Below, one piece after another: positions 20,010 through 46,450 of a DNA stretch of 64,000 bases. Source of the DNA: a virus; the IMG/VR virus record IMGVR_UViG_3300023235_000015, positions 1-64,000 of that record, one strand, 5' to 3'. Under the pieces are notes generated by a model. The model had not been told where the DNA came from and did not search any database. It saw only the letters and a list, made by a program, of their open reading frames with translations. The stretch's first letter is position 1, and every line of letters starts with the position of its first letter. A program made the translations under genes and the position numbers.

Positions 20010-21410
20010 TTGATTGAGATAAAAGTCACAAACTTCATTGAGGTTAGGGGGCTACCTGATAAATGGGTAGCTTCTCTTGCTAAGCTGGTGTCAGTAGAAA
20101 ACGAGAAGAAGGCTACAGCGATAAGTGAACATACTTATGGCGCTGAATACCTACCTGATCGTTTGACCTACCTAGAAGATCAGGGTGATTACATTACGCT
20201 ACCTCTAGGCTTTGAGAAAGAGCTTACAACGCGCCTGACTGAGACTAAGACACCTTACAAAAGACTTAGATGTACTAATTTTGTATCGTCAAAATCTTAT
20301 ACAGATCATGATACTATTGCCCTTAGAGATAGACAGCCAGAAGCTAAACAAGCTATGCTAGACAATAAGCATGGACTTATTATGGCTTCTCCCGGCTTTG
20401 GCAAAACTACAGTTGGCCTTCACGCTATTTTAGAAATAGGTCAAAGAACAATAATCTTAGTTGACAAAACTGAGCTAGCTAAACAGTGGATAGTTCGCGC
20501 CAAAGAACAATTTGGTATTGATATAGGTCTTATTGGAGATAACCAATGGAACGAGCAAGACATTACAGTAGCTACGCTTCAAACTCTAAGGTCTAGAGAA
20601 GAACAGCTAAACAATGAAAACTTTTGGGATAGATGGGGAGTTGTTGTATATGATGAATCGCATCATGCTGGTAGCTCAGATAGCTACTTTAATATTGTCA
20701 GTAAGTTTAAAGCTGATCGTAGGTACGGCCTTTCAGCTACTAAAGGAAAGAGCCAACAGAAATCAAAGGTGGCCGAACTAGTATTTGGCCCTGTTTTATT
20801 TGAAGATAAAACAAATCAACTTATTCCTACTGTACACAGAGTAAAAACTAATTTTCAATTTGAATATCGTGGTACAGATATTATCAATGGAAAGCGCGTA
20901 CAGAATAATTACCAAGCTATGATAAAAGAACTTATCGCTGACATAGATAGAAATAAATTAATTGCGTCTAAGATAAATAACGAACCTAACTGCGCTCATC
21001 TAGTTATATCAAGGCGGCTACAGCACCTAGAGGACGTTCAAAGCGCCGTAATAGAGGCTGGCTTCGATCCTAAGCGGTGTTTTATGCTTACAGGCAAGGA
21101 ATCCTCAGACCGACGCTTAGAGGTCGGGAGAATGGCTGACAGCGGCTCTATCGCTATATTTTCAACCGTAGCTGACGAGGGATTGGATATCCCGCGCCTA
21201 GACAGAATACACTTACCATTTCCATCTAAGAATCATGAGACAACTAGACAACAAGTAGGTAGAGGTTTAAGAAACCATCCTGATAAAGATGAAACTATTA
21301 TCTATGATTATGTTGATTTAGAAGTATCTGTAATGCGCAATCAATGGAGAAACCGTTTGAATAGATATTACCGTCCAAACAAATTTCCCATTGAATCTTA
21401 CGAATTTTAG
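20010..21410 (+). CDS. Superfamily 2 DNA helicase (UvsW-like)
   Basis: The TTG at 20010 is the plausible start. The 466-residue protein has Walker A ASPGFGKTT (about residue 127), DESHH Walker B (about 215), LSATKGK motif III and a C-terminal QVGRGLRN motif VI. Length and an N-terminal domain before motif I resemble UvsW/RAD25-type helicases that remodel recombination or replication forks. It stands alone between the tail operon and the converging tRNA cluster. Its last codons and stop (21408-21410) lie inside the 3' strand of helix P1 of the RNase P RNA gene on the other strand. Confidence 0.85.
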   Translation: MIEIKVTNFIEVRGLPDKWVASLAKLVSVENEKKATAISEHTYGAEYLPDRLTYLEDQGDYITLPLGFEKELTTRLTETKTPYKRLRCTNFVSSKSYTDHDTIALRDRQPEAKQAMLDNKHGLIMASPGFGKTTVGLHAILEIGQRTIILVDKTELAKQWIVRAKEQFGIDIGLIGDNQWNEQDITVATLQTLRSREEQLNNENFWDRWGVVVYDESHHAGSSDSYFNIVSKFKADRRYGLSATKGKSQQKSKVAELVFGPVLFEDKTNQLIPTVHRVKTNFQFEYRGTDIINGKRVQNNYQAMIKELIADIDRNKLIASKINNEPNCAHLVISRRLQHLEDVQSAVIEAGFDPKRCFMLTGKESSDRRLEVGRMADSGSIAIFSTVADEGLDIPRLDRIHLPFPSKNHETTRQQVGRGLRNHPDKDETIIYDYVDLEVSVMRNQWRNRLNRYYRPNKFPIESYEF

Positions 21411-21779
21411 TATATCATATAGGCAGGATTCTGTTTTTCAGTCAATCATCTGTCTCAGTGTTGCTCTCGCTTTTCAGCGCACTTAGCTCCCTCAATAGGA
21501 AGTGCATACTGGCCGCATCTTTACATGGTGGCTGCTCTCTACCTTCATTCCTCAAAGTTTTCGGCATCTTAGTTTTCACGCCACTATGATTAGTCCTTAC
21601 AGGAAATATTTTGAGATTGCATACCCTGCTTAACGTCTTTTCTACTTATTGGTAAATAGCGGGTTTCCCCTCCCAAAGCGGATAAGTCATTTTATATTAG
21701 GTTAGCCCTAACAGGGTTGTCCTGACCTTCCTCGACAATGAATTTGAGCCATATGCCGCGACTGACCAGATATACTAAA
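21406..21779 (-). ncRNA. rnpB: RNase P RNA (bacterial type A-like)
   Basis: Read on the minus strand this 374-nt stretch matches the order of RNase P RNA landmarks. P1: TTTAGTATATC (21779-21769) pairs perfectly with GATATACTAAA (21416-21406). P2: TCAGTC (21765-21760) pairs with GACTGA (21443-21438). Conserved GAGGAAGGTC precedes the P4 strand CAGGA (21724-21720), which pairs with TCCTG (21428-21424) in the ACAGAATCCTG block. GAGGGGAAACCCGC, GGTAGAGAGC...CCACC and AGACAGATGATTGACTG follow the order seen in E. coli M1 RNA. I did not find a clear GGU in the expected L15 position, consistent with tRNAs that do not encode CCA. The gene starts right after the last tRNA fragment of the cluster, so it is probably co-transcribed. 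Role: ribozyme that cuts tRNA 5' leaders, using the host protein subunit. Confidence 0.9.
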
Positions 21780-21781
21780 TA

Positions 21782-21860
21782 GGAGTGGTGGGAATCGAAC
21801 CCAACGTATTATCTGTAACCATTACCCCTTAAGTACTGCCGTCTGGATTTGAACCAGATT
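21782..21860 (-). pseudogene. Two tRNA fragments at the end of the tRNA cluster
   Basis: The first piece (about 21833-21858) is a T-arm only: TCTGG, loop TTCAAAT, CCAGA, then CGGCAGT. The second (about 21782-21830) has an acceptor-like AGGGGT/ACTCCT, a D-like hairpin GTAATGGTTAC and a canonical T-loop TTCGATT, but no anticodon arm. Neither is a full tRNA. The HNH gene ends directly at the first fragment, suggesting the endonuclease replaced a 5' half. Confidence 0.5.
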
Positions 21861-22248
21861 AAAGCCTTCCGTCTAGGTATTTATTTTTATACCAGTCGTT
21901 TTCTTCTATGTGAAATATGTGGTGACAATTCCTGCATAAGACTTCGCATTTATTTATTTCATCTAAAATGCGTTGTTGAGCTATTTGTTTATGCGGCGCG
22001 TCAAATAAGCCGAATGATTTTTCGCCTCTTATATGGTGAAAGTCCAAACACCGAATATCTTTTTGACCACACTCACCACAAGGGTTGGTTGATAAATATT
22101 CGCACAGAAAAATTTGAATTTCTCTAGTTCGTTTAGCTTTTTGAATCTTAACTCTAGCTTTTTGTTTCTTTTTGTTCTTCTGATACCAGTCTCTTTGGTA
22201 CTGGCGATTTCGTTTTCGTTGCTCTAAATTATTAGGATCGTATGACAT
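21859..22248 (-). CDS. HNH homing endonuclease within the tRNA cluster
   Basis: The 129-residue basic protein has paired CxxC motifs (PCGECG and EVLCRNCHH) around the catalytic core RCLDFHHIRGEKSF, the usual HNH layout of small free-standing phage endonucleases. The N-terminus is strongly basic (KNKKKQKARVKIQKAKR). It lies on the same strand as the tRNAs, and its stop codon abuts a T-arm fragment. Such genes spread by cutting intergenic or tRNA sites. No intron core was recognised around it. Confidence 0.85.
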   Translation of the reverse strand: MSYDPNNLEQRKRNRQYQRDWYQKNKKKQKARVKIQKAKRTREIQIFLCEYLSTNPCGECGQKDIRCLDFHHIRGEKSFGLFDAPHKQIAQQRILDEINKCEVLCRNCHHIFHIEENDWYKNKYLDGRL

Positions 22249-22283
22249 AACTGTATTATATCAAGTTATAAGATCAATTCATA

Positions 22284-22356
22284 GGGAAGGCGGGGATTGA
22301 ACCCGCGTGAACCAATTACCCTTTCAACTGCATATAAGACAGAGGGGATACTTCCC
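22284..22356 (-). tRNA. Atypical tRNA-like gene, possible TAT anticodon
   Basis: Acceptor GGGAAG/CTTCCC and a canonical T-arm (GCGGG, TTCAATC, CCCGC) are clear, and the length is 73 nt. The 5' half lacks a normal D-arm: only six bases separate acceptor from a CTGT/GCAG hairpin with loop CTTATAT (anticodon TAT if used). A D-like AATTGG sequence lies after that hairpin instead. It may be decaying or rearranged. Confidence 0.35.
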
Positions 22357-22363
22357 AACGATT

Positions 22364-22386: not shown

Positions 22387-22398
22387 GGTAATACAATA

Positions 22399-22467
22399 GG
22401 ATATAAAGGTTATGCTCCTTTTTCTCTGCCTTATCAGAGCAGCGTCTTAACTAGTGGACAAATATCC
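22399..22467 (-). tRNA. tRNA-Ile(GAT) with unusual elbow
   Basis: Acceptor GGATAT/ATATCC, anticodon stem CTGCT/GGCAG with loop CTGATAA. The T-loop is AGCATAA instead of TTCNANT and the D-loop is ACTAGTTAA without GG. C56 and one G in the D-loop are kept. Acceptor plus T-stem give 11 base pairs rather than 12. Confidence 0.7.
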
Positions 22468-22482
22468 AATGTGTAAATAAGT

Positions 22483-22554
22483 GGAGCTAATAGGATTCGA
22501 ACCTACATAAAATACGTTGCAAACGTATCGCCTTGCCAATCGAGCCATAACCCC
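22483..22554 (-). tRNA. tRNA-Ala(TGC)
   Basis: Acceptor GGGGTTA/TAGCTCC, anticodon stem ATACG/CGTAT with loop TTTGCAA, canonical T-loop TTCGAAT and D-loop with GG. CCA is not encoded. Confidence 0.92.
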
Positions 22555-22571
22555 TTGATAAATTTTTAAGT

Positions 22572-22643
22572 GGTCAATCAGGGATTCGAACCCCGGACCT
22601 TCCGCATGTAAAACGGCTGCGCTACCAACTGCGCCAATCGACC
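22572..22643 (-). tRNA. tRNA-Val(TAC)
   Basis: Acceptor GGTCGAT/ATTGACC, loop TTTACAT, T-arm GGGGTTCGAATCCC. All arms are intact and CCA is not encoded. Confidence 0.9.
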
Positions 22644-22680
22644 TTAAATTTTACTTCTTGACTTTCTTTTTCTTAACGTA

Positions 22681-22740
22681 TTCGAACCTATGCTTTCTTG
22701 GTATGTAACACCAAAGCTCTACCTACTGAGCTAATCGGGT
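22681..22740 (-). pseudogene. Truncated second tRNA-Val(TAC)
   Basis: The 5' acceptor strand ACCCGAT, D-arm GCTC/GAGC, anticodon stem TTGGT/ACCAA with loop GTTACAT and T-loop TTCGAAT are all present. After the T-loop the sequence runs ACGTTAAGAAAAAG, which cannot close the T-stem or the acceptor. The 3' end is lost, so it is probably a dead duplicate. Confidence 0.6.
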
Positions 22741-22754
22741 ATGTAATTTTTAAA

Positions 22755-22826
22755 GCGCCTATTTGGATTCGAACCAAAATCTTCGACCTTCGTAGAGTCG
22801 TGTGTTATCCATTACACTATAGACGC
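22755..22826 (-). tRNA. tRNA-Arg(ACG)
   Basis: Acceptor GCGTCTA/TAGGCGC, anticodon stem CGACT/GGTCG with loop CTACGAA, T-loop TTCGAAT. A34 would need deamination to inosine to read all CGN codons it could serve. Confidence 0.9.
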
Positions 22827-22872
22827 ATATGTAGGTTACTTTGAAGTAGAGCGTATACCTACAATACTCTAC

Positions 22873-22944
22873 ACCCCTACTAGGATTCGAACCTAGACCT
22901 AACGACTTAGAAGATCGTTGCATTATCCATTGTGCTATAGAGGT
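22873..22944 (-). tRNA. tRNA-Arg(TCT)
   Basis: Acceptor ACCTCTA/TAGGGGT, anticodon stem ACGAT/GTCGT with loop CTTCTAA, T-loop TTCGAAT. It reads AGA, a frequent Arg codon in these genes. Confidence 0.92.
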
Positions 22945-23017
22945 ATATTGCTAGTCACAAAAAGTAGCTATTTTTTTACTAGCTCTTACATGAGAGGATA
23001 AGTCAATGTAAGTAAGC

Positions 23018-23087
23018 AGGAAATAAAGGGATCGAACCTTTGTTTGCAGGTTTGGAATCTGCCGTGATGCCATTACACTAATCTCCT
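23018..23087 (-). tRNA. tRNA-Trp(CCA)
   Basis: Acceptor AGGAGAT/ATTTCCT, anticodon stem GCAGA/CCTGC with loop TTCCAAA, T-loop TTCGATC. The 73-base spacer to the next gene holds two inverted repeats (CTTACAT/ATGTAAG and GCTAGT/ACTAGC). Confidence 0.88.
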
Positions 23088-23103
23088 ATATTTAATTTTT
23101 AGC

Positions 23104-23174
23104 TGATCCAGAAGGATTCGAACCTTCATTTTTCTGCTTAACAGGCATACGCATTTCCATTATGCTACAGATCA
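23104..23174 (-). tRNA. tRNA-Asn(GTT)
   Basis: Acceptor TGATCTG/TGGATCA, loop CTGTTAA, T-arm GAAGGTTCGAATCCTTC. All arms are present. Confidence 0.9.
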
Positions 23175-23187
23175 ATGTTTACTACAG

Positions 23188-23270
23188 TATCGCATATAGG
23201 ATTCGAACCTATTCACCCGAAGGAACAGTTTTACAGACTGCCATGACTCTCCAACTTCATCGCTACGATA
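23188..23270 (-). tRNA. tRNA-Tyr(GTA)
   Basis: Class II tRNA with acceptor TATCGTA/TGCGATA, anticodon stem GCAGT/ACTGT, loop CTGTAAA and variable arm closing with CCTTCGGG. Length 83 nt. Confidence 0.92.
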
Positions 23271-23283
23271 TGTTTTACTTCAT

Positions 23284-23354
23284 GATTCCTGATGGATTCG
23301 CACCACCGACGCGCAACGCTTCAAGATGCCGCTCTACTCCTGAGCTAAGGAACC
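23284..23354 (-). tRNA. tRNA-Phe(GAA) with G55
   Basis: Acceptor GGTTCCT/AGGAATC, anticodon loop TTGAAGC (stem GCATC/GTTGC, one mismatch), T-loop TGCGAAT, so position 55 is G rather than T. The D-loop AGGAGTA can place A at 18 and G at 19. Confidence 0.8.
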
Positions 23355-23368
23355 GTATTTAATTAAGG

Positions 23369-23440
23369 GCGAACAGAGGAATTCGAATCCTCATTTTCTT
23401 GGATCACAACCAAGGGCATTAACCGTTATGCTATGTTCGC
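23369..23440 (-). tRNA. tRNA-His(GTG)
   Basis: Acceptor GCGAACA/TGTTCGC, anticodon stem CTTGG/CCAAG with loop TTGTGAT. C73 is present; the base before position 1 is T, so G-1 is not encoded and would have to be added. Confidence 0.92.
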
Positions 23441-23443
23441 AGT

Positions 23444-23518
23444 ACGCTCGGAAGGAATCGAACCTTCAAAATCTCTTGTGTCTAAGACAAGCGGCTTTGC
23501 CAGTTTGCCCACAAGCGC
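23444..23518 (-). tRNA. tRNA-Leu(TAG) with short variable region
   Basis: Anticodon stem CTTGT/ACAAG with loop CTTAGAC; D-arm GTGGGCAAACTGGCAAAGCC is Leu-like. The variable region is only AGATTTT, not the long arm usual for Leu. Acceptor GCGCTTG/CGAGCGT begins with a G-U pair. Confidence 0.8.
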
Positions 23519-23536
23519 ATGTTATTTTTACTTCAA

Positions 23537-23606
23537 TCACCGGCTAGGATTCGAACCCAGATAAGATGCCCCAAAAACATCTGTCTTACCGTTAGACGAC
23601 CAGTGA
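23537..23606 (-). tRNA. tRNA-Gln(TTG)
   Basis: Acceptor TCACTGG/CCGGTGA, anticodon stem GATGT/GCATC with loop TTTTGGG, T-loop TTCGAAT. The register was fixed by counting from the D-stem; a Pro(TGG) reading would need a shifted loop. Confidence 0.8.
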
Positions 23607-23611
23607 ACATT

Positions 23612-23680
23612 GCTTAGAATGGATTCGAACCACTATCCCTAGATTCAGAGTCTAGTCACTTACCAATTAGTGTACCAAGC
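23612..23680 (-). tRNA. tRNA-Gln(CTG)
   Basis: Anticodon stem CTAGA/TCTAG with loop CTCTGAA, acceptor GCTTGG/CTAAGC, T-loop TTCGAAT. It complements tRNA-Gln(TTG) next to it. Confidence 0.88.
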
Positions 23681-23696
23681 ATTATTTTTACTACAA

Positions 23697-23767
23697 GCCT
23701 AAATACGGAATCGAACCGTAATTATCTGATTACAAAACAGAGGTAATAGCCGTTATACTATTCAGGC
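23697..23767 (-). tRNA. tRNA-Thr(TGT)
   Basis: Acceptor GCCTGAA/TTTAGGC, loop TTTGTAA, T-arm TACGGTTCGATTCCGTA. All arms are intact. Confidence 0.9.
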
Positions 23768-23782
23768 GTATGTTGTTCATAC

Positions 23783-23791
23783 ATTATACCA
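23783..23791 (-). promoter_or_regulatory. Extended -10 promoter candidate within the tRNA cluster
   Basis: On the minus strand ATGGTATAATG provides TGnTATAAT; no -35 match at 17-18 bases. It would start RNA for tRNA-Thr and the genes downstream of it. Confidence 0.4.
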
Positions 23792-23799
23792 TACTTCAA

Positions 23800-23882
23800 G
23801 GAAGGGCAGAGATTCGAACTCTGAGGGCTGTTACGCCTAGCTGTTTTCAAAACAGTGTCCTTAACCAATTCGGATACCTTCC
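23800..23882 (-). tRNA. tRNA-Ser(TGA)
   Basis: Class II tRNA: acceptor GGAAGG/CCTTCC, loop TTTGAAA, variable arm GGCGTAACAGCC, T-arm CAGAGTTCGAATCTCTG. Length 83 nt. Confidence 0.9.
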
Positions 23883-23898
23883 ATATTTAATTTTAAGC

Positions 23899-23981
23899 GG
23901 AATACTCAGGGTTCGAACCTGAAGGGCTTTTATGCCTTGTCTCTTTAGCAAAGAGAGTCCTGTCCAATTCGGTTGTATTCC
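23899..23981 (-). tRNA. tRNA-Ser(GCT)
   Basis: Class II tRNA: acceptor GGAATAC/GTATTCC, anticodon stem TCTCT/AGAGA with loop TTGCTAA, long variable arm, T-arm TCAGGTTCGAACCCTGA. Downstream of its 5' end a hairpin CCATACC/GGTATGG fills the spacer to tRNA-Met. Confidence 0.92.
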
Positions 23982-24040
23982 AGATGCCATACCAGTGTAG
24001 CAGATTGTATGCTAGACGGTATGGAGTTTAGTACTTCATG

Positions 24041-24110
24041 GCGGGTATCGGTGCCGCCCCGATTCCTAGAGCTTATGAGACTCCCGACTTATCTACCTTG
24101 TCCTACCCGC
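24041..24110 (-). tRNA. tRNA-Met(CAT) with non-canonical T-loop
   Basis: Acceptor GCGGGTA/TACCCGC, anticodon stem GGAGT/GCTCT with loop CTCATAA. The T-loop is GGCGGCA instead of TTCNANT, and T-stem plus acceptor share a base, giving 11 stacked pairs. G1-C72 argues against an initiator tRNA; elongator Met or lysidine-type Ile are possible. Confidence 0.72.
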
Positions 24111-24122
24111 TTTGTATGTTAC

Positions 24123-24152
24123 ATTATATCAAATGATAAGGAGTAGCGTCAA
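24123..24152 (-). promoter_or_regulatory. Strong sigma70-like promoter inside the tRNA cluster
   Basis: On the minus strand TTGACG (24152-24147), an 18-base spacer and TATAAT (24128-24123) preceded by TGA. It starts just before tRNA-Met and reads toward the RNase P RNA. The stretch 24153-24347 upstream of it has short hairpins but no gene I can name. Confidence 0.75.
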
Positions 24153-24347
24153 CCTTTAATCTAAGTTCTTAATATTAGAGTAGCTTACACCAGACTTCTA
24201 CTGGTTCCTACATAAGTTATAAAAGTTATAAAGAAATATAAAAGGTATCGGGCGGGAGGTACATATTGCGCCATATGCTTCCTCACATTATTCTCAGTAG
24301 AGATTTTTATATTAACCTGCTAGCGGTAGGTCGTCCGATGTTATAGT

Positions 24348-24429
24348 ACCCTTACTAGGATTCGAACCTAGACGCATATTTCAGCAGTTGGGCTTAAACC
24401 AACCGTGTCTACCATTTCACCATAAGGGC
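24348..24429 (-). tRNA. tRNA-Leu(TAA)
   Basis: Class II tRNA: acceptor GCCCTTA/TAAGGGT, anticodon stem GTTGG/CCAAC with loop TTTAAGC, variable arm TGCTGAAATATGCG, T-loop TTCGAAT, A73. Confidence 0.9.
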
Positions 24430-24440
24430 TTATGTAAAAT

Positions 24441-24513
24441 GCTGCTACTAGGATTCGAACCTAGACTTTACCGCGTTTGAAACGGCTTCCTCTACCAATT
24501 GGGATATAACAGC
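24441..24513 (-). tRNA. tRNA-Leu(CAA) with short variable region
   Basis: Acceptor GCTGTTA/TAGCAGC, anticodon stem GCCGT/GCGGT with loop TTCAAAC, T-loop TTCGAAT, A73. The variable region is about six bases, unlike normal Leu tRNAs. Confidence 0.8.
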
Positions 24514-24521
24514 TTATGTAA

Positions 24522-24558
24522 ATCAGACTAACAGGATTTGAACCTATATAATCTTAAT
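24522..24558 (-). pseudogene. tRNA fragment: T-arm and 3' acceptor only
   Basis: ATAGG, TTCAAAT, CCTGT followed by TAGTCTG. The preceding bases belong to the 3' end of tRNA-Pro, so no 5' half exists. Confidence 0.6.
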
Positions 24559-24628
24559 CGGAATACGTGGAGTCGAACCACGGCTTCTAAGTTCCAAACC
24601 TAGGGTGCTACCGTAACACCTTATTCCG
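24559..24628 (-). tRNA. tRNA-Pro(TGG), overlapping the HNH gene end
   Basis: Acceptor CGGAATA/TATTCCG, anticodon stem CTAGG/CTTAG with loop TTTGGAA, T-arm CGTGGTTCGACTCCACG. Its first bases CGGAATAA contain the stop codon of the upstream HNH gene. Confidence 0.88.
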
Positions 24629-25010
24629 TTATGAAACGTGAGCTTGTTCTAATTGCGTGACAATTGGCACAAACTAATTCACATTTACTAATTTCTTTTG
24701 ATATCTTTTCTATACCGAAACCTCTTGCGACCATGTTACCAACATTGAATTCTTTATCATTTTCAATATGATCCCAATGCATTACTATAGGTGGGTATGT
24801 ATTGTCGCAATCTGTACAAGGGCCGGACTTTATTTTGTTCGACCATTCTCTTAAGTCTTTACGCCTTGATTTATTTTGTGAAGCCCTTTTGCCTTTATCA
24901 GACTCGTAGCGTTCCTTATCATAAACTTTAACGCAAATCCTACACCAAGATTGTCCCTTATTAAATTCTGATTCTGTTTTAGTCTTAGTACATCTAGAGC
25001 AGTTCTTCAT
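24621..25010 (-). CDS. HNH homing endonuclease ending inside tRNA-Pro
   Basis: The 129-residue protein has an N-terminal CxxC...CxxC zinc knuckle (NCSRCT, WCRIC) and a core VMHWDHIENDKEFNVG with the flanking CTDCD and LVCANCHAIRTSSR. These are typical of phage recombination-endonuclease-VII/HNH proteins. The last codons ACG GAA TAA form the start of tRNA-Pro, so endonuclease and tRNA share eight bases. The spacing suggests invasion of a tRNA 5' flank with restoration of the tRNA. Confidence 0.85.
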   Translation of the reverse strand: MKNCSRCTKTKTESEFNKGQSWCRICVKVYDKERYESDKGKRASQNKSRRKDLREWSNKIKSGPCTDCDNTYPPIVMHWDHIENDKEFNVGNMVARGFGIEKISKEISKCELVCANCHAIRTSSRFITE

Positions 25011-25060
25011 AAATGAAATATACCATATTTGGAAACTTTGTCAAATGTTCCAAATAAATT

Positions 25061-25129
25061 GCCGGTATGGGTAACGATCCCATTTCTGAAAGTTAAGAGC
25101 TTCCTGCATCACCATTAATGCTTACCAGC
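25061..25129 (-). tRNA. tRNA-Lys(CTT) with A54/T58
   Basis: Acceptor GCTGGTA/TACCGGC, anticodon stem GGAAG/CTTTC with loop CTCTTAA, D-loop with GG. The T-loop is ATCGTTA: T55 and C56 remain but the 54/58 pair reads A-T instead of T-A. Confidence 0.85.
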
Positions 25130-25139
25130 TATGTAAAGC

Positions 25140-25210
25140 GGTTCATGAGGGTTACGATCCCTCTTATTCTGATCGACAATCAGATGTAATAACCAGTATA
25201 CGAATGAACC
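25140..25210 (-). tRNA. tRNA-Asp(GTC) with A54/T58
   Basis: Acceptor GGTTCAT/ATGAACC, anticodon stem TCTGA/TCAGA with loop TTGTCGA, T-arm GAGGG, ATCGTAA, CCCTC. Same 54/58 exchange as tRNA-Lys(CTT). Confidence 0.88.
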
Positions 25211-25217
25211 AAATGGT

Positions 25218-25288
25218 ACGGAATAAGAGAATTGAACTCTTGTTTCAAGGATGAAAACCTCGCGTATTCTCCACTATACTAATCCCGC
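25218..25288 (-). tRNA. tRNA-Glu(TTC)
   Basis: Acceptor GCGGGAT/ATTCCGT, anticodon stem CGAGG/CCTTG with loop TTTTCAT, T-arm AAGAGTTCAATTCTCTT. Canonical T-loop TTCAATT. Confidence 0.9.
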
Positions 25289-25302
25289 GTAAATTTTAAA
25301 AA

Positions 25303-25374
25303 GCATCATTAGAGATTCGAACTCTATTCTCTTGGGTGGAAGCCAAGTATGTCAACCATTTCTACTTATGATGC
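25303..25374 (-). tRNA. tRNA-Gly(TCC)
   Basis: Acceptor GCATCAT/ATGATGC, anticodon stem CTTGG/CCAAG with loop CTTCCAC, T-arm AGAGTTCGAATCTCT. Confidence 0.92.
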
Positions 25375-25379
25375 ATATT

Positions 25380-25448
25380 GCCCCTGAGTGACTTGCACAC
25401 TCGCCCCAAGGCTTAAAAGGCCCGGATCTACTTGTTGAATTAAGGAGC
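25380..25448 (-). tRNA. tRNA-Lys(TTT) with G55
   Basis: Acceptor GCTCCT/AGGGGC, anticodon loop CTTTTAA within GGC/GCC, T-arm GAGTG, TGCAAGT, CACTC. The T-loop has G55 and the D-loop AACAAGTA has A18 G19 instead of GG. Confidence 0.75.
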
Positions 25449-25462
25449 TTCGTTTACTAAGT

Positions 25463-25539
25463 GGAGAAGAAGGGTATCGAACCCTTGTCTTAGAGAGCGC
25501 ACTTCGGCAGTAACTCTAATCGAATCCTATCGCTTCCCC
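25463..25539 (-). tRNA. tRNA-like gene, isotype unresolved
   Basis: Acceptor GGGGAAG/CTTCTCC and T-arm AAGGG, TTCGATA, CCCTT are good. Between them lies an extended hairpin TTAGAG/CTCTAA enclosing ACT/AGT with loop GCCGA, instead of a normal 5+7 anticodon arm. Possible Gly(GCC) if the loop is CTGCCGA, but the stem would be poor. Confidence 0.4.
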
Positions 25540-25570
25540 GTGTTTTCCTACAGTTGATACCTGTTCGTAC

Positions 25571-25579
25571 ATTATAGCA
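25571..25579 (-). promoter_or_regulatory. Extended -10 promoter candidate
   Basis: Minus-strand TGTGCTATAATG contains TGCTATAAT. The -35 at 17 bases (TACACG) is weak. It would drive the tRNA-like gene at 25463 and downstream tRNAs. Confidence 0.45.
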
Positions 25580-25603
25580 CAGATGCCCCGCGCCGTGTAG
25601 AGA

Positions 25604-25674
25604 GATTGAGAAAGGATTCGAACCTTCATAAGACAGGGTTGCAGCCTGCCGCGTCACCATTCCGCCACTCAATC
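25604..25674 (-). tRNA. tRNA-Cys(GCA)
   Basis: First tRNA of the cluster: acceptor GATTGAG/CTCAATC, anticodon stem GCAGG/CCTGT with loop CTGCAAC, T-loop TTCGAAT. Confidence 0.93.
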
Positions 25675-25685
25675 GTGTTCTAGGT

Positions 25686-25714
25686 ACTATACAGGGTCGC
25701 GCGGAGAATGTCAA
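25686..25714 (-). promoter_or_regulatory. Consensus sigma70-like promoter of the tRNA cluster
   Basis: Perfect TTGACA (25714-25709), 17-base spacer, TATAGT (25691-25686) on the minus strand, 12 bases before tRNA-Cys. The -35 overlaps the last codon of the HNH gene at 25711. Confidence 0.85.
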
Positions 25715-26019
25715 GCTCTGCGATTAAAGACCCAAGGGCGCTCTCCTTCAATAATTTCATCAGCATGAAAATCGTCGTGACAATATTTACACATTAAAAC
25801 GCATTTATTAACTTCGGACCAAAATCTTTTATGGCTACATTTAGCTAAGTAAGTAACTGTATTTAGTTTAGTTTCAGGGTTTATATGATGAAACTCTAAA
25901 CTTACGTGTGGAGTAATACACTCTGGAATGTAACATTTATTTCCAAGATGTTCTTTAGCATCATTTACTCGCTTATTATATCTACGTTTTTGTGATGCTT
26001 TTTTTGCTTCGCTTTGCAT
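25711..26019 (-). CDS. HNH endonuclease upstream of the tRNA cluster
   Basis: The 102-residue basic protein has CYIPEC, then the core VSLEFHHINPETKLNTV and a second zinc pair LMCKYCHDDFH, the usual small HNH layout. The N-terminus is a basic helix. Its stop codon lies in the -35 element of the tRNA promoter, showing tight packing or recent insertion. Probably free-standing and mobile. Confidence 0.85.
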   Translation of the reverse strand: MQSEAKKASQKRRYNKRVNDAKEHLGNKCYIPECITPHVSLEFHHINPETKLNTVTYLAKCSHKRFWSEVNKCVLMCKYCHDDFHADEIIEGERPWVFNRRA

Positions 26020-38654: not shown

Positions 38655-40019
38655 ATGTGCGACTATTGTAATCTACACGCTCACAGCGATAACAGTTTGC
38701 TGGATGGGGCAGTCACAACTATGGAAAGAGCTAGGCTTACACAAGAGCTAGGTCAGACCTCATTAAGTATTTCCGATCATGGAACCCTTATGGGCGTACC
38801 AGATCATATTGAATCTTGTAAAGAATATGGGCTTAAGCCTCATGTTGGAATTGAAGCTTACTTTAAACCTGATCGTCTTAAGCAAGACAAGCATAATAAA
38901 AAGTCATTCCATCTGTTGCTAACCGCACAGAATGAAGATGGCTGGAAAAATCTAATTAAGCTCTCTAGCGAAGCTTATCAATCTGGTTTCTACTACAAGC
39001 CTAACATGGATTACTCTCTGTTAAAAAAACACTCAGAGGGAGTCATTGCTTCTTCTGGCTGTATTTCAGGATACCTGCCGCGCCTAATTTTGAATGGTGC
39101 GCCGCAACATGAAATTGATGAATGTATTCAAAAGCACCTAGAAATTTTTGGCGACAATTACTACTTTGAAATTATGCCACATGATTTAAATGAGCAGCGA
39201 GTAGTCAATCAACATCTAGTAAAGTATTCATTAGACTACAATATACCTTTAGTTGCTACTAATGATTCTCACTATGGCAATAACGATGATGCGTCTACTC
39301 AAGACGTTCTGCTAATGATTGCTACTGGTCAATCTAGAAATCAGCGTGAAACTAAAAAGGAAGCTGGCGAAGAAGTGTACGAAATGGGTGAGGCTGACAC
39401 GCTTCATATGATGAGTATGGATCAAATGAAGGATAAGTTTGCCACATACCATTATGATATTCCAGAAAACGTTATACATAAATCTTTACTAGAGTCAGGT
39501 AAAATTTCTGAGAAGATTGAAGAATTTGAACTAAGTAAAAAGATCAAGATACCTAAGCTTTACAACACTAAAGATAAAGCTAAGAAGCAGCTTGAAAAAT
39601 GGTGCCGTGAAGGTATGGACAGAATTGGTAAGACAGGCGTACAGGAGTATGAAGATCGCCTATCATACGAGCTACAAGTTATTTACGATATGGAGATTGA
39701 AGATTACTTTATCCTAGCCGCTAACACGGTGCGTTGGGCTAGAGATAGCGGCATTAGAATATCTAGTGGTCGTGGTTCTGCCGCAGCGTCTATTGTATGT
39801 TACTTAAGTAAAATTACGATGATTGATCCCATTACACATAAGTTCAAGTTTGCTAGATTCCTAAATAAGAACAGAAGTGGGAAGCCAGAATTACAATTTC
39901 CTACTATTGAGTCTGATAATTATAGCGGCTTGACGGAAACCGAGCTTTTTGATATTATTGAATACAATGGAAAAAGCAATGCCGGAATCCAAAATAACCA
40001 AAGTATGCCCAGTATGTAA
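38655..40019 (+). CDS. DNA polymerase III alpha-like, N-terminal piece (split gene)
   Basis: Contains the PHP domain (NLHAHSDNSLLDG, SISDHGTLMGV, ATNDSHYGNNDD) and the first palm motif GRGSAAASIVCYLSKI, then FARFLNKNR. The following ISFC/PDIDLDF active-site strand is missing; it lies in the C-terminal piece. True homology ends near 39965, after which the frame runs into the HNH insertion and stops at 40019. Together the two pieces make a C-family replicative polymerase. The split lies inside the palm. Confidence 0.88.
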   Translation: MCDYCNLHAHSDNSLLDGAVTTMERARLTQELGQTSLSISDHGTLMGVPDHIESCKEYGLKPHVGIEAYFKPDRLKQDKHNKKSFHLLLTAQNEDGWKNLIKLSSEAYQSGFYYKPNMDYSLLKKHSEGVIASSGCISGYLPRLILNGAPQHEIDECIQKHLEIFGDNYYFEIMPHDLNEQRVVNQHLVKYSLDYNIPLVATNDSHYGNNDDASTQDVLLMIATGQSRNQRETKKEAGEEVYEMGEADTLHMMSMDQMKDKFATYHYDIPENVIHKSLLESGKISEKIEEFELSKKIKIPKLYNTKDKAKKQLEKWCREGMDRIGKTGVQEYEDRLSYELQVIYDMEIEDYFILAANTVRWARDSGIRISSGRGSAAASIVCYLSKITMIDPITHKFKFARFLNKNRSGKPELQFPTIESDNYSGLTETELFDIIEYNGKSNAGIQNNQSMPSM

Positions 40020-40620
40020 TAAAGCATTTATTTCATATAAGTGTAAGAATCAGCATGTATGTTCTAAAAATTGTCGGCATAAAGCACATTCTACTAAAAT
40101 GAAGCAATATGAAAATAAAAGTTGCGCCTTTTGTAAAAAAAAATTTTATGCGAAGAATGGTAATCAAAGTCAAAGATTTTGTTCGTTAGAATGTTTTCAT
40201 AATTCTACTAAAGTAAAATGTTTAGTGTGTAAAAAGCCAATATTAAAGAAACTAAAAACTTGTTCTCGTAAATGTATGGCAATTCGCTACAAAGAATTGC
40301 TAAAGGGTGAGAACAATCCTAATTGGAAAGGCGGATTTTTTAGCAGAGAAAACTCATTAGTATCAGCTAAACTTAGAAAAGAAGTTTTAACCAGAGATAA
40401 CAATAAATGTCAGGAATGCGGAGTAACAGATTGGAACGAAAAACCCAGCCTATTACATACGCATCATATAATAGAATTTACAGATGGCGGCGCAACAGAA
40501 TTATCTAATCTCATAATTCTTTGTTTTGTGTGTCATTGGGAAAGGAAGCATGGATATACGTTGGGTAAAAATATGCAAGAAATCGCATCCAGAACGGGTT
40601 GCGGAGATTACAGAAGATAA
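39967..40620 (+). CDS. HNH endonuclease interrupting the polymerase gene
   Basis: I prefer the ATG at 39967 (or 39979). The protein has several CxxC zinc knuckles (VCPVCNKAF, CAFCKKKF, KCLVCKKPI) and an HNH core: CQECGVTDW...LHTHHIIEFTDGG, LSNLIILCFVCHWERKHG. Multiple zinc ribbons before an HNH core are typical of phage intron- or gene-associated endonucleases. It overlaps the end of the N-terminal polymerase piece and the beginning of the C-terminal piece. Confidence 0.9.
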   Translation: MEKAMPESKITKVCPVCNKAFISYKCKNQHVCSKNCRHKAHSTKMKQYENKSCAFCKKKFYAKNGNQSQRFCSLECFHNSTKVKCLVCKKPILKKLKTCSRKCMAIRYKELLKGENNPNWKGGFFSRENSLVSAKLRKEVLTRDNNKCQECGVTDWNEKPSLLHTHHIIEFTDGGATELSNLIILCFVCHWERKHGYTLGKNMQEIASRTGCGDYRR

Positions 40621-42703
40621 GCTAACCGAAGAAATAGTTAGTATACCTGATAAGTATACTAAAAAGCTACAGCTTTGTTTGCTAAATAAAGAAAAGATAG
40701 ATAACTTAACAAATAGCAGCTTACTGTATTGTTTAGGAATAACTAATGACAAGCCAACTGGCGATATTAAACGTGTTGGTGGGTCTATGCCCGACATTGA
40801 CCTTGACTTTGATCCTGAACGTATTCCAGAAGTTATTGCGTATTTAGAAAAGCTTCTAGGTAAAGATCACGTATGTCACATTTCAGCGGTTGGTACTTAC
40901 AAACCTAAGTCTGCTATTAAAGACGTAGCGCGAGTTCTAAATGTACCTTTTGCTGAAGTCAACGCCGTAACTAAAATGATTCCTGATCCTCCCGATCAGC
41001 CGCCGCTAGATATTCTTTACAGAGACTATCAAGAGGTAGCAGATTTCTTAGATGCTTGGCCCGAAGTAAAGAAACACGCATTCAAAATTGAGGGAATGAA
41101 AAAGCAATTATCTAGACACGCCGCTGGTATTCTAGTGTCGCCGTTCCCAATTACAGATGAAATGCCAATTATTAGAGGCAAGGAATCTATGGTAACAGGC
41201 TTTACTGATACCGCTGGTGCTGAGTGGGTAACTGGTCTAGGATGGATGAAGCTTGATATTCTTTCTATTGACGGGCTAACTAAACAAGGCAAAGTAATTG
41301 AATCTGTTTACAGGCGCACAGGCAAAAAAATTAATCTTGATGAGCTTTCTGTAGCTACTGATCCAGATTCCGCCGATCCTAAAGTGCTAGAGATTTTATC
41401 ATCTGGTAGGAATGAAGGCATTTGGCAGTTTCGGTCTAAGGGTGCGTCCAATTTCATTAAAGATATTGGGCCAACGTCATTCTACGATATCGCCGTAGCT
41501 AATGCTCTATACAGACCGGGTGCGCTAGATGGTGGTGACGCTTTTAAGTATGCTGCTTGTAAGCATGGCAAAGATGTTCCTACTTATTGGCATCCATCAG
41601 TAAAACCGTTCCTAGAATCAACTTATGGAATTGTAGCATTTCAGGAACAGCTAATGGAAATCGCTGAAGAACTTGGCGGATACACACCAGAAGATGCTGA
41701 TGATTTACGTAAGATTGTATCTAAGTTATATAGGATTGGCAAGGCACAGGCATCTAAGATCATGAACGAGAACAAGCCTAAGTTCGTTAACGGCTGCAAG
41801 AGCAATGGGCTAACTGAGAGCGAAGCTGAGCTAGTTTGGGAACGCTTTCTAGCATTTAGTGGTTACGGATTCAATTACATTCACGCGGCCTCATATGGAT
41901 TTACCGCCTATCAAGATGCCTACTTAAAAGCTTACTACCCTATGGATTTCTACGCTGCTGAATTAAGCGGCTCTGACGAGGTAGCCAGTATTGTAAGAGA
42001 GGCAAGATTCTCAGATATTATTGTTAGTCCTCCCGATATTAACAGGTCAGAAAAAGAATTTACTATTGATGAAGAAGAACAAAAAATTCTCTATGGTTTG
42101 CGAGCAGTAAAGTATATTGGTAGCGAGGCAGTAAAAACAATTGTTAACACTCGTAAAAATGATCCTTACATTGACATACATAATTTTCGTAATAGAGTAG
42201 CCCCAAAGAAGGTAAACAAAAGAGGTCTAGACTATTTGGTAAAAGCTGGTGCATTTGATAGCGTTGGTGAAAGAGCGCAGCTTGATAAGCTACAGAAAAG
42301 AGCATTAGAAGCTGAGGCAATTGGAGTCGAGCTTACTGGATCACAAGACGCTCTAAAATATTCCGGCATTCTAGAATCAAGAATAAAGACAGAAAAGCAA
42401 GTAGAGAGCGCCGCAGATGGTAGCGGTCTAACGGTTGGCGGTGAAATTACAGCAGTAAAGCAAATTGAAATTAAGCGAGGAAAGTTTAAGGGAAAGCCTA
42501 TGGCATTCGTTGATATTTCTCACAAGGCAGATAGCTACTCATGTACTGTATTTACTGACAAATTTTACAAGTATCAGGACTTGCTTTCTGAGGGCAATAT
42601 TGTTATTGTTAGAGGTAGAAAGAGTGATCGAGGCGGATTACTACTAGACACTATGGCTAGGCTTGAAGATTTAGCAAAAGCATTGGAGAAAAATAATGAA
42701 TGA
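40550..42703 (+). CDS. DNA polymerase III alpha-like, C-terminal piece (split gene)
   Basis: I place the start at the ATG 40550, preceded by GGGAAAGGAAG. The 717-residue protein contains the catalytic SMPDIDLDFDPER motif, RHAAGILVSPFPI, WMKLDILSIDGLTK (third Asp), the ALYRPGALDGG fingers region, GYGFNYIHAASYGF, tandem helix-hairpin-helix and an OB domain (VIVRGRKSDRG). With the N-terminal piece it restores a full C-family polymerase. Whether it assembles from two polypeptides or an intron is spliced is unknown; the ribosome site favours two polypeptides. Confidence 0.88.
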   Translation: MDIRWVKICKKSHPERVAEITEDKLTEEIVSIPDKYTKKLQLCLLNKEKIDNLTNSSLLYCLGITNDKPTGDIKRVGGSMPDIDLDFDPERIPEVIAYLEKLLGKDHVCHISAVGTYKPKSAIKDVARVLNVPFAEVNAVTKMIPDPPDQPPLDILYRDYQEVADFLDAWPEVKKHAFKIEGMKKQLSRHAAGILVSPFPITDEMPIIRGKESMVTGFTDTAGAEWVTGLGWMKLDILSIDGLTKQGKVIESVYRRTGKKINLDELSVATDPDSADPKVLEILSSGRNEGIWQFRSKGASNFIKDIGPTSFYDIAVANALYRPGALDGGDAFKYAACKHGKDVPTYWHPSVKPFLESTYGIVAFQEQLMEIAEELGGYTPEDADDLRKIVSKLYRIGKAQASKIMNENKPKFVNGCKSNGLTESEAELVWERFLAFSGYGFNYIHAASYGFTAYQDAYLKAYYPMDFYAAELSGSDEVASIVREARFSDIIVSPPDINRSEKEFTIDEEEQKILYGLRAVKYIGSEAVKTIVNTRKNDPYIDIHNFRNRVAPKKVNKRGLDYLVKAGAFDSVGERAQLDKLQKRALEAEAIGVELTGSQDALKYSGILESRIKTEKQVESAADGSGLTVGGEITAVKQIEIKRGKFKGKPMAFVDISHKADSYSCTVFTDKFYKYQDLLSEGNIVIVRGRKSDRGGLLLDTMARLEDLAKALEKNNE

Positions 42704-44427: not shown

Positions 44428-44589
44428 ATGACTGTAGAAATAGAACTAAAAAACGATACAAAAAGTAGATATATTTATGATGTAAAACATGAGCAAAAGC
44501 ACGACGGTTTTTACATAATTCAAAGTAAAAAAGATAAATATTTTTTTGCTATTGATCAAATAAAATCAGTTAGGATTATCAATGGCTGA
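44428..44589 (+). CDS. Small basic beta protein
   Basis: A 53-residue protein (SRYIYDVKHEQKHDGFYII, KYFFAIDQIKSVRI) whose stop overlaps the start of the Cas4-like gene. Fold looks like a small beta sheet; function unknown. Confidence 0.5.
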   Translation: MTVEIELKNDTKSRYIYDVKHEQKHDGFYIIQSKKDKYFFAIDQIKSVRIING

Positions 44590-46450
44590 TAGACAACAAA
44601 CAATGGCGGCATTAGGATTAGATGTAGATATCGTATCGCCATTAATTGAAAAAGCGTATAAGAATGAAGCTAAGGCTATCTTCGAGAAAGACTTATTTAG
44701 TTCCCCTCATGGAGAACATTGGGCTACTTGCTTAGCTGGCGAAACTGAAATAGTAACAAGAGGCGGGATAAAACAAATTAAAGATTGTTTGGGTATTGAA
44801 GAAATTCTTATACCTAAAAGAGGTAAGGGTAAATTTAAGAAGTGTGAAATAAGGAATTTTGGACCCAACTATCTTTATAGAATTGAATTAGTTAAGGGTA
44901 AGAGTAAAAAAACTGTTTATGCTACACACGATCACAGGTGGTATCTTAAGGATGATTCAGTTAGCTATACAGGGGTATTAAATATTGGAGATAAACTAAA
45001 ATCTATAAAATCTCAGAGCGTTGTAAATAATCATAAACTAATTAGATTTGCAGCGGCGCAAGGATTTGTTTTTGGCGACGGTACAACCGGGCTAAATTCT
45101 AGCCATCTTGACTTACATCATAATGGCAAAGATGAATGTATGCTTGACTATTTCATAGGTCACGATACTAGCTTATTAAGTAATCTTAGTGGAATGATTA
45201 TAACAAGAATTTTGGATTTGCCTGCTAATTGGAAAAACTTACCAGATATTTATGAATCTAGAAAATTTTTAATATCTTGGTTGGCTGGTTATTTTGCTGC
45301 TGATGGACACGTTTCTAAAACAGGTTCTATGAGATTAGTTTCTAGCGAATATGGAAATCTTGATTTCGTTAGAGCAGTCTTATCTATTTGTGGTATTTCA
45401 TATGGAAAAATTACGCAAAGGGAATCTGGAAAATATAAATGGCATGAATTGTCAATTGAAAATAAAAATATTCCAGATTGGTTTTTTATATTAGATAAAC
45501 ATAAAGATAGATCAGATAATTCAAAACGGGACACAAGAAAATTAGATTGGAAAGTATTAGATATACAACTAACAACTAGGTGTGAAGATGTTTATTGTGC
45601 TATTGTCCCTGAAGAAAATAGTTTTGCTTTATCTGGCGATCTATTGACTGGAAATTCTTTTCACGCTTCACAATTTCCCGGCGACGAGGAAACAGCTTGT
45701 GCTAGAAAAGCTATGTATGGGTTTATGAATATACCTGATACTAGTCCTGCCTCTCGCAAGCTAGTTACATCAGCCGAATCTGGTTTAGATTTAGAGGATC
45801 GTATTGTGTGGAGATTACACCGCGCCGGTATTTTACTATCTAATCCACCAGACGCAGATCATCAGACTAACTTTACTGATGAAAAGCATTGGCTTAGTGG
45901 TAACTCAGATGCAATCATAAAGATACCAAGATCAAACCGGCCCTATGCTTTGGAAATTAAGTCTAAGTATGGTAGGGTTATTGAAGAAATGCAAAGAGGG
46001 GATCGTGAACCTGATCCACAGCATGTAAATCAGCTAATGACGTATATTAGTCTAATTCATATGTATGGAAAAGAACACTGGCCCGATATGGATAAGTGTA
46101 TGGGTGGTTCATTACTATATGTAAGCCGTGACGATCCTTCTCAGACGTTTGAATTTAAATTGAAGTACAACCAAAAATGGCTAGATGAAGGTCTAGCTCG
46201 CTTAGAAAAGTGGCAGGGATATTTCTTAGATGAAACTATACCAGAACGACAAGAACACTTCATGTGGAGTAAAGGCGCTTGTCAGTATTGCCCGATGAAA
46301 CGCGAAGCCTGTAAAAAAGATTTCAAAGATGGTATTACAGATATGAATAAATCACATGGTATTGCTTATGCTAAAACAATACGTAAAAATTACGATTATA
46401 AGGAAACAAGAGAAGCCGTATTAGAACGGTGGATCAAGGACAGTAAATAA
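44582..46450 (+). CDS. Cas4/RecB-like nuclease with intein
   Basis: The 622-residue precursor has a 309-residue intein (residues 50-358). The spliced product of about 313 residues shows SFHASQFPG, CARKAMYG (first Cys of an Fe-S cluster), HWLSGNSDAII, ALEIKSKYGRV (PD-(D/E)XK catalytic) and a C-terminal CQYCPMKREAC cluster. This is the Cas4-type 5'-exonuclease layout. In phages such proteins act in replication or recombination, next to a RecA-like gene as here. No CRISPR array or other cas gene is present. Confidence 0.88.
   Translation: MADRQQTMAALGLDVDIVSPLIEKAYKNEAKAIFEKDLFSSPHGEHWATCLAGETEIVTRGGIKQIKDCLGIEEILIPKRGKGKFKKCEIRNFGPNYLYRIELVKGKSKKTVYATHDHRWYLKDDSVSYTGVLNIGDKLKSIKSQSVVNNHKLIRFAAAQGFVFGDGTTGLNSSHLDLHHNGKDECMLDYFIGHDTSLLSNLSGMIITRILDLPANWKNLPDIYESRKFLISWLAGYFAADGHVSKTGSMRLVSSEYGNLDFVRAVLSICGISYGKITQRESGKYKWHELSIENKNIPDWFFILDKHKDRSDNSKRDTRKLDWKVLDIQLTTRCEDVYCAIVPEENSFALSGDLLTGNSFHASQFPGDEETACARKAMYGFMNIPDTSPASRKLVTSAESGLDLEDRIVWRLHRAGILLSNPPDADHQTNFTDEKHWLSGNSDAIIKIPRSNRPYALEIKSKYGRVIEEMQRGDREPDPQHVNQLMTYISLIHMYGKEHWPDMDKCMGGSLLYVSRDDPSQTFEFKLKYNQKWLDEGLARLEKWQGYFLDETIPERQEHFMWSKGACQYCPMKREACKKDFKDGITDMNKSHGIAYAKTIRKNYDYKETREAVLERWIKDSK
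44729..45655 (+). mobile_element. Intein in the Cas4-like nuclease with WCT residues
   Basis: Residues 50-358 run from CLAGETEIVT to LLTGN, followed by Ser. Block B has ATHDHRWYL with Trp two after His; block F is DVYCAIV with Cys in place of Asp; block G has LLTGN with Thr. These three are the class 3 signature residues, yet position 1 is Cys. LAGLIDADG motifs are FVFGDGT and LAGYFAADG. Confidence 0.85.

Follow-up and report, generated by a model that had tools for sequence, protein, structure and literature searches.

Only two ribozymes are nearly universal in cells, and RNase P is one of them; viruses are generally assumed to use that of their host. Within RNase P RNA, conservation is strongest in helix P4, which holds 11 of the 21 universally conserved nucleotides (PMC4919922). 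The closest described system is the bacterial class A RNA (Rfam family RF00010, M1 RNA). Reduced forms are also known, as the archaeal RNase P RNA of Pyrobaculum is confined to the catalytic domain (PMC4919922), and the catalytic domain (C-domain) of the E. coli RNA still cleaves without the specificity domain (S-domain), aided by a P6-like contact (PMC5839562). In phages, tRNA arrays and tRNA-processing genes such as the CCA-adding enzyme of huge phages (PMC7162821) have been described, as have theta ribozymes close to tRNAs (PMC10879173). The open-access literature searched contained no description of an RNase P RNA encoded by a phage, although work outside it may exist; RNase P is mentioned neither in the paper on the Stenotrophomonas phage DLP6 nor in a survey of viral tRNA genes. 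The first-pass annotation of the locus described here, made from sequence alone, likewise knew of no well-described case in such a cluster.

An RNase P RNA gene at the end of a phage tRNA array

The locus lies within the window, i.e. the whole stretch of 64,000 nucleotides analysed here, which forms part of an IMG/VR virus record of 102,342 bases (IMGVR_UViG_3300023235_000015, positions 1 to 64,000). The presence of genes for terminase, portal, tail, DNA polymerase, ribonucleotide reductase and helicase identifies the source as a tailed phage. For its DNA polymerase, the top match among annotated phages has an identity of about 33%. The features of the locus are as follows.

20010-21410, plus strand: DNA helicase gene, convergent to the RNase P RNA (phrog_16, E 2e-50)
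21406-21779, minus strand: RNase P RNA gene, P1 to P1, about 374 nt (RF00010 and R1 models)
21780-21829, minus strand: degenerate tRNA-like element (acceptor and T-arm) abutting the RNase P RNA (sequence only)
21859-22248, minus strand: HNH endonuclease ORF separating the last tRNA from the RNase P RNA (phrog_3106, E 8e-20)
22282-22357, minus strand: weak tRNA-like element (Rfam tRNA 24.6 bits, below cut-off)
22396-25674, minus strand: 22 tRNA genes, none with encoded CCA (ARAGORN)
25714-25686, minus strand: promoter-like site upstream of the tRNA array (consensus match only, 11/12)

With all 4227 Rfam families searched, RF00010 (class A) aligned over its full length at 21404-21777 of the minus strand (37.3 bits, E=3.2e-10), and this was its sole match in the entire 102-kb record (E=1.6e-11). 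Since the score is below the Rfam gathering cut-off of 100 bits for this family, a default Rfam search does not list the RNA; an E-value threshold recovers the match. In a control panel of genomes, 11 matched RF00010 and only 8 of them exceeded the cut-off. A second covariance model, R1, was built from 21 other phage RNAs with the window RNA excluded. It matched at 21408-21777, again over the full length (56.4 bits, E=1.3e-13), and nowhere else in the window, the RNA thus scoring higher with the phage-only model than with RF00010 (56 vs 37 bits). By homology and structure, positions 21406-21779 of the minus strand are an RNase P RNA gene. We class it as homologous to bacterial RNase P RNA but keep it apart from ordinary class A members, since it neither reaches the Rfam cut-off nor has a full S-domain.

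A chance resemblance might be suspected from the folding free energy of the RNA, which is not unusual compared with shuffled sequences (z=-1.14) and was not counted as evidence; E-values of 3e-10 and 1e-13 from two models all but exclude it. The comparative structure given below is about 13 kcal/mol worse than the unconstrained fold, with P4 left out, and is a comparative reading, not an energy argument. Another rival is a normal rnpB of a bacterium, present because a bacterial contig was mis-binned or a prophage flank was included. In its favour, IMG/VR may include host sequence, and one INPHARED hit labelled Acinetobacter phage was rejected as bacterial sequence (an Acinetobacter contig). 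This explanation is very unlikely, however, as the window carries terminase, portal, DNA polymerase, ribonucleotide reductase and tail genes, the record is without 16S rRNA, the P4 bases differ, the S-domain is reduced, and relatives occur in phages of up to 735 kb and in the isolate DLP6.

The gene lies downstream of the 22-tRNA array on the same strand. On the other side, the last 5 nt of the helicase ORF overlap the 3′ strand of P1. The nearest tRNA called by ARAGORN is 617 nt away, and the HNH ORF and degenerate tRNA-like pieces lie between. The T-arm/acceptor part of the abutting tRNA-like element, which was called by neither ARAGORN nor Rfam, ends at 21780, and P1 starts one base later at 21779.

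Several side observations were made. Three tRNA-like remnants (T-arm and acceptor), not called by ARAGORN, occur in 21780-21870 and 22282-22357 of the minus strand; they are possibly decayed tRNAs for Gly and Met, the isotypes that the array lacks, or else short substrates of RNase P. In or beside the array are three HNH endonuclease ORFs related to one another (21859-22248, 24621-25010 and 25711-26019, minus strand). DNA polymerase III alpha is seemingly split across adjoining ORFs on the plus strand, the first (38655-40019) comprising PHP and the start of the polymerase domain and the second (40526-42703) the remainder. A Cas4-like exonuclease ORF of 622 aa (44582-46450, plus strand) has a LAGLIDADG domain within it, probably an intein.

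Structure of the RNA and compensated changes in P4

The structural elements read in the window RNA, all on the minus strand, are listed from 5′ to 3′.

21769-21779, minus strand: P1 5′ strand, pairs with 21406-21416, 11/11 bp; P1 covaries in homologues
21760-21765, minus strand: P2 5′ strand, pairs with 21442-21447, 6 bp
21720-21728, minus strand: P4 5′ strand AGG-U-CAGGA with a single bulged U, active-site helix, 8 bp with 21421-21428
21628-21711, minus strand: reduced specificity domain with the P6 5′ strand, P7, P8, P9 (GGG-GAAA-CCC) and a 7-bp hairpin (manual comparative reading, tentative)
21536-21616, minus strand: P15-P17 with GGU in L15 (RF00010 alignment and hand structure)
21421-21428, minus strand: P4 3′ strand UCCUG-CCU within ACAGAAUCCUGCCUA (direct pairing)
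21406-21416, minus strand: P1 3′ strand (direct pairing with 21779-21769)

Further helices were read by hand, namely P3 (5+3 bp), P5 (7 bp), P15 (4 bp), P16 (5 bp), P17 (5 bp) and P18 (6 bp). The order of P1, P2 and P3 and the crossing of P2 and P4 are present in the window RNA and supported by covariation in homologues. For P2, the register with GACUGA of the first-pass annotation likewise pairs. The blocks GAGGAAGGUC, UGCAA, GGUAG..GC, AGACAGAUG and ACAGAA align to the RF00010 consensus, and CR-I, CR-IV and CR-V are present (GAGGAAGGUC, AGACAGAUG and ACAGAA..CUA), with P4 letters unlike the cellular consensus. Some conserved letters are altered (CAAAUAG to CAAAAUAU). The GGU of L15 is the CCA-binding loop in known RNase P.

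The P4 core of the window RNA reads CAGGA/UCCUG, compared with CCGGG/CCCGG in cells; in three of the eight P4 pairs, both strands depart from the cellular AAG-U-CCGGG/CCCGG-CUU. As P4 lies outside the nested Rfam structure, its pairing constitutes separate evidence. The same P4 class was also found in other phages.

Within the S-domain of the window RNA, P11-P14 and CR-II/CR-III were not recognisable, and only P7, P8, P9 and one hairpin could be read. P6 comprises 4 bp read from one sequence only, and covaries in relatives. A blastn search of the RNA against annotated phages gave no match, and no relatives were found via the helicase; via the DNA polymerase we obtained one near-identical 36-kb contig, which does not extend to the RNase P locus. 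Because no close relative of this copy was found, the readings of its S-domain and P6 depend on a single sequence.

Covariation was evaluated in the homologues. In 21 relatives, the named structure was paired in 89.7% of the alignment cells (65% in shuffles), with a covariation score of 0.567 compared with 0.169 when shuffled and 0.05-0.10 when slid. For 57 RNAs including that of the window, 95.1% of cells were paired vs 62.7%. P4 itself was paired in 99.6% of the cells of these 57 phage RNAs; both sides had changed in six of its eight pairs, and the bulged U was kept in all readable variants. The P4 variants among phages comprise CAGGA/UCCUG, CGGGA/UCCCG, U-CGCGA/UCGCG-G, CGACG/CGUCG and CGACA/UGUCG. 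The 57-RNA alignment was fitted to a model containing P4 and therefore leans towards pairing; P4 was also recovered on a plain MAFFT alignment, apart from the model-fitted one. RNAalifold recovered P1, P3, P4, P5 and P15 unaided.

The claims of the first-pass annotation on the RNA itself were thus confirmed: its coordinates and strand, the pairing of P1 (11 bp), P2 (6 bp) and P4 in the right order, the conserved blocks around P4, and the compensation of P4 relative to E. coli CCGGG/CCCGG. The covariance-model search it had proposed as a check gave a significant match, though below the gathering cut-off. Neither outcome named as refuting it, namely no model match or loss of P4/P2 pairing in homologues, was seen. 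Its statement that the gene lies immediately 3′ of the array held only in part: strand and array end are correct, but not the immediate proximity to a called tRNA.

Related RNAs in other viruses and their placement by tRNA genes

Related RNAs of about 150-375 nt, mostly unannotated, were found at about 60 viral loci. Viral contigs were scanned with GAGGAANGTCAGGACA, with the 3′ half, and with both halves with P4 left free. Most raw motif hits (81 and 94) were due to chance or lay inside genes; we retained those hits alone in which the P4 strands were complementary and suitably spaced, and scored them with RF00010 and R1. Together the three scans yielded full RNase P RNAs on about 30 distinct contigs. 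Most of these RNAs matched RF00010 with E 1e-6 to 1e-90, largely below the cut-off; the RNAs measure about 147 to 374 nt. R1 also matches three huge phages, LR756501 (735 kb), LR756511 and LR745206, and one phage in culture, DLP6 of Stenotrophomonas, where the matched stretch, 105774-106018 of KU682439, is unannotated and lies 8 nt from a tRNA-Arg. A scan for the P4 of DLP6 and LR756501 (GUUCGCGAC/UCGCGGCUA) revealed a second P4 class on 31 further viral contigs, some of them near-duplicates; R1 detected all 31 and RF00010 none (at E 0.001). As contigs were chosen by P4 words, the frequencies of P4 types are biased; this bias spares the compensation seen in the free-P4 scan and the placement by tRNAs. 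A weak, partial match in an Enterocloster phage (15.9 bits) was excluded from the count.

These records are not stray bacterial contigs, as 16S rRNA was found in none of 30 and terminase in 12. The smallest relatives (147-165 nt) are nearly devoid of an S-domain and consist of a 4-bp P5 hairpin with a P6 strand in its loop, followed by P15 with the GGU loop, CR-IV and CR-V. A scan of 84,980 cellular genomes for this short form gave only three matches. One was an ordinary rnpB with an assembly gap, and another has a cellular P4. The third, JACRNU010000015.1, is a contig with tRNAs of an Elusimicrobia MAG that has an ordinary rnpB on another contig; its RNA is compact, has the P4 CCGGA/UCCGG and lies beside the tRNAs. 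It is likely a phage contig binned with the MAG. The near absence of the short form in cells points to a viral group rather than a recent capture, with the limitation that the second P4 class was not included in the cellular scan.

The phage RNase P RNAs sit head to tail with tRNA genes. Among 33 loci, a tRNA gene is at most 14 nt away in 20, and the strand is the same in all 24 with a tRNA within 1.5 kb. For the second P4 class, a tRNA lies within 100 nt in 24 of 31 and on the same strand in 28 of 28 within 1.5 kb. ARAGORN also called tmRNA genes close to the RNase P RNA and tRNAs in three records. The phage of the window encodes a CCA-adding enzyme with an HD domain (genome positions 88536-89960, minus strand), and PF01743 was also matched in 12 of 38 related records searched. 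RnpA (PF00825) was absent from the 102-kb record and from 29 others, i.e. all 30 searched; host RnpA is therefore the probable partner, its binding being inferred.

The assignment as a phage RNase P RNA at the end of a tRNA cluster is supported by two covariance models, the compensated P4 and the about 60 related viral loci similarly placed. Alternatively, the RNA could derive from a host rnpB and now be an inactive, decaying pseudogene. The low score (37 bits), the array turnover evident from nearby HNH genes and degenerate tRNA-like pieces, and the single copy without close relatives speak for this possibility. Yet every P1 and P4 pair is intact, the P4 changes are compensated, the phage-only model outscores RF00010, and many distant phages retain such RNAs in a like setting, which makes a pseudogene unlikely.

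Proposed function and comparison with known systems

We consider it likely (probability about 0.8) that the window encodes an RNase P RNA that is divergent yet functional and is one of a widespread phage group. The data establish its homology and structure, the compensated changes, its placement, the presence of the CCA enzyme and the lack of RnpA; transcription, RnpA binding, catalysis and a benefit to the phage are inferred. With its catalytic domain whole and its specificity domain shrunken, the RNA would be co-transcribed with the tRNA array during infection and join host RnpA. The complex is predicted from homology to cleave the 5′ leaders of the phage pre-tRNAs, after which the phage CCA-adding enzyme would finish their 3′ ends. 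In relatives with the RNA a few bases from tRNAs, tRNA processing would also release the ends of the ribozyme. Since the E. coli C-domain cleaves alone, the reduced S-domain is no bar to activity. The self-sufficiency suggested by the first-pass annotation is too strong, as no RnpA gene was found and a host protein is probably required for the inferred catalysis. Evidence against our main reading consists of the score below the cut-off, altered conserved letters, the lack of recognisable CR-II/CR-III, the absence of transcript or activity data and the lack of a close relative.

The RNA might instead act as a decoy, its RNase P-like fold binding host RnpA (or pre-tRNA) and blocking host RNase P without cleaving. 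A phage without RnpA must compete for that of the host, and the altered P4 and reduced S-domain are compatible with this idea. A decoy does not need an active site, however, yet the 57 RNAs retain P4 pairing, its bulged U, ACA-AA and the GGU loop, with compensated changes, and the location inside phage tRNA arrays favours tRNA production. We therefore regard a decoy as unlikely and retain the reading as a functional RNase P RNA. A bolder version, which may or may not prove correct, is that tailed phages hold their own RNase P ribozyme lineages specialised for phage tRNA arrays, with P4 rewritten several times and the specificity domain reduced or lost; such ribozymes would process tRNAs alongside the host enzyme, perhaps once the latter is shut off, diluted or inhibited.

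A viral RNase P lineage, if true, would add a ribozyme to the translation equipment of phages and, with P4 rewritten with compensation, provide natural active-site variants with which to ask which letters catalysis needs. The relatives of about 150 nt would rank among the smallest RNase P RNAs of bacterial architecture. Standard annotation overlooks these RNAs, one entire class being without an RF00010 match. The cultured phage DLP6 puts the question within experimental reach.

The window RNA shares with bacterial class A the order and pairing of P1, P2, P3, P4 with its bulged U, P5, P7 and P15-P18, tentatively also P6, the CR-I, CR-IV and CR-V blocks and the GGU loop. It differs from class A in its score below the cut-off (37.3 bits), in CAGGA/UCCUG replacing CCGGG/CCCGG in P4, in a short S-domain without recognisable P11-P14 and in being phage-borne at a tRNA array. 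Like the minimal RNA of Pyrobaculum, the smallest phage relatives (147-165 nt) are without nearly the whole S-domain; unlike it, the phage RNAs are class A-like, have P6, are viral and have a recoded P4, and the window RNA has a partial S-domain. Phage tRNA arrays and processing genes (PMC7162821) represent the same genomic theme, both being present in the genome of the window, whereas the text of those papers yielded no ribozyme for 5′-end processing. Theta ribozymes (PMC10879173) are likewise located close to phage tRNAs, but they are small, self-cleaving, HDV-like and structurally unrelated to the RNA described here.
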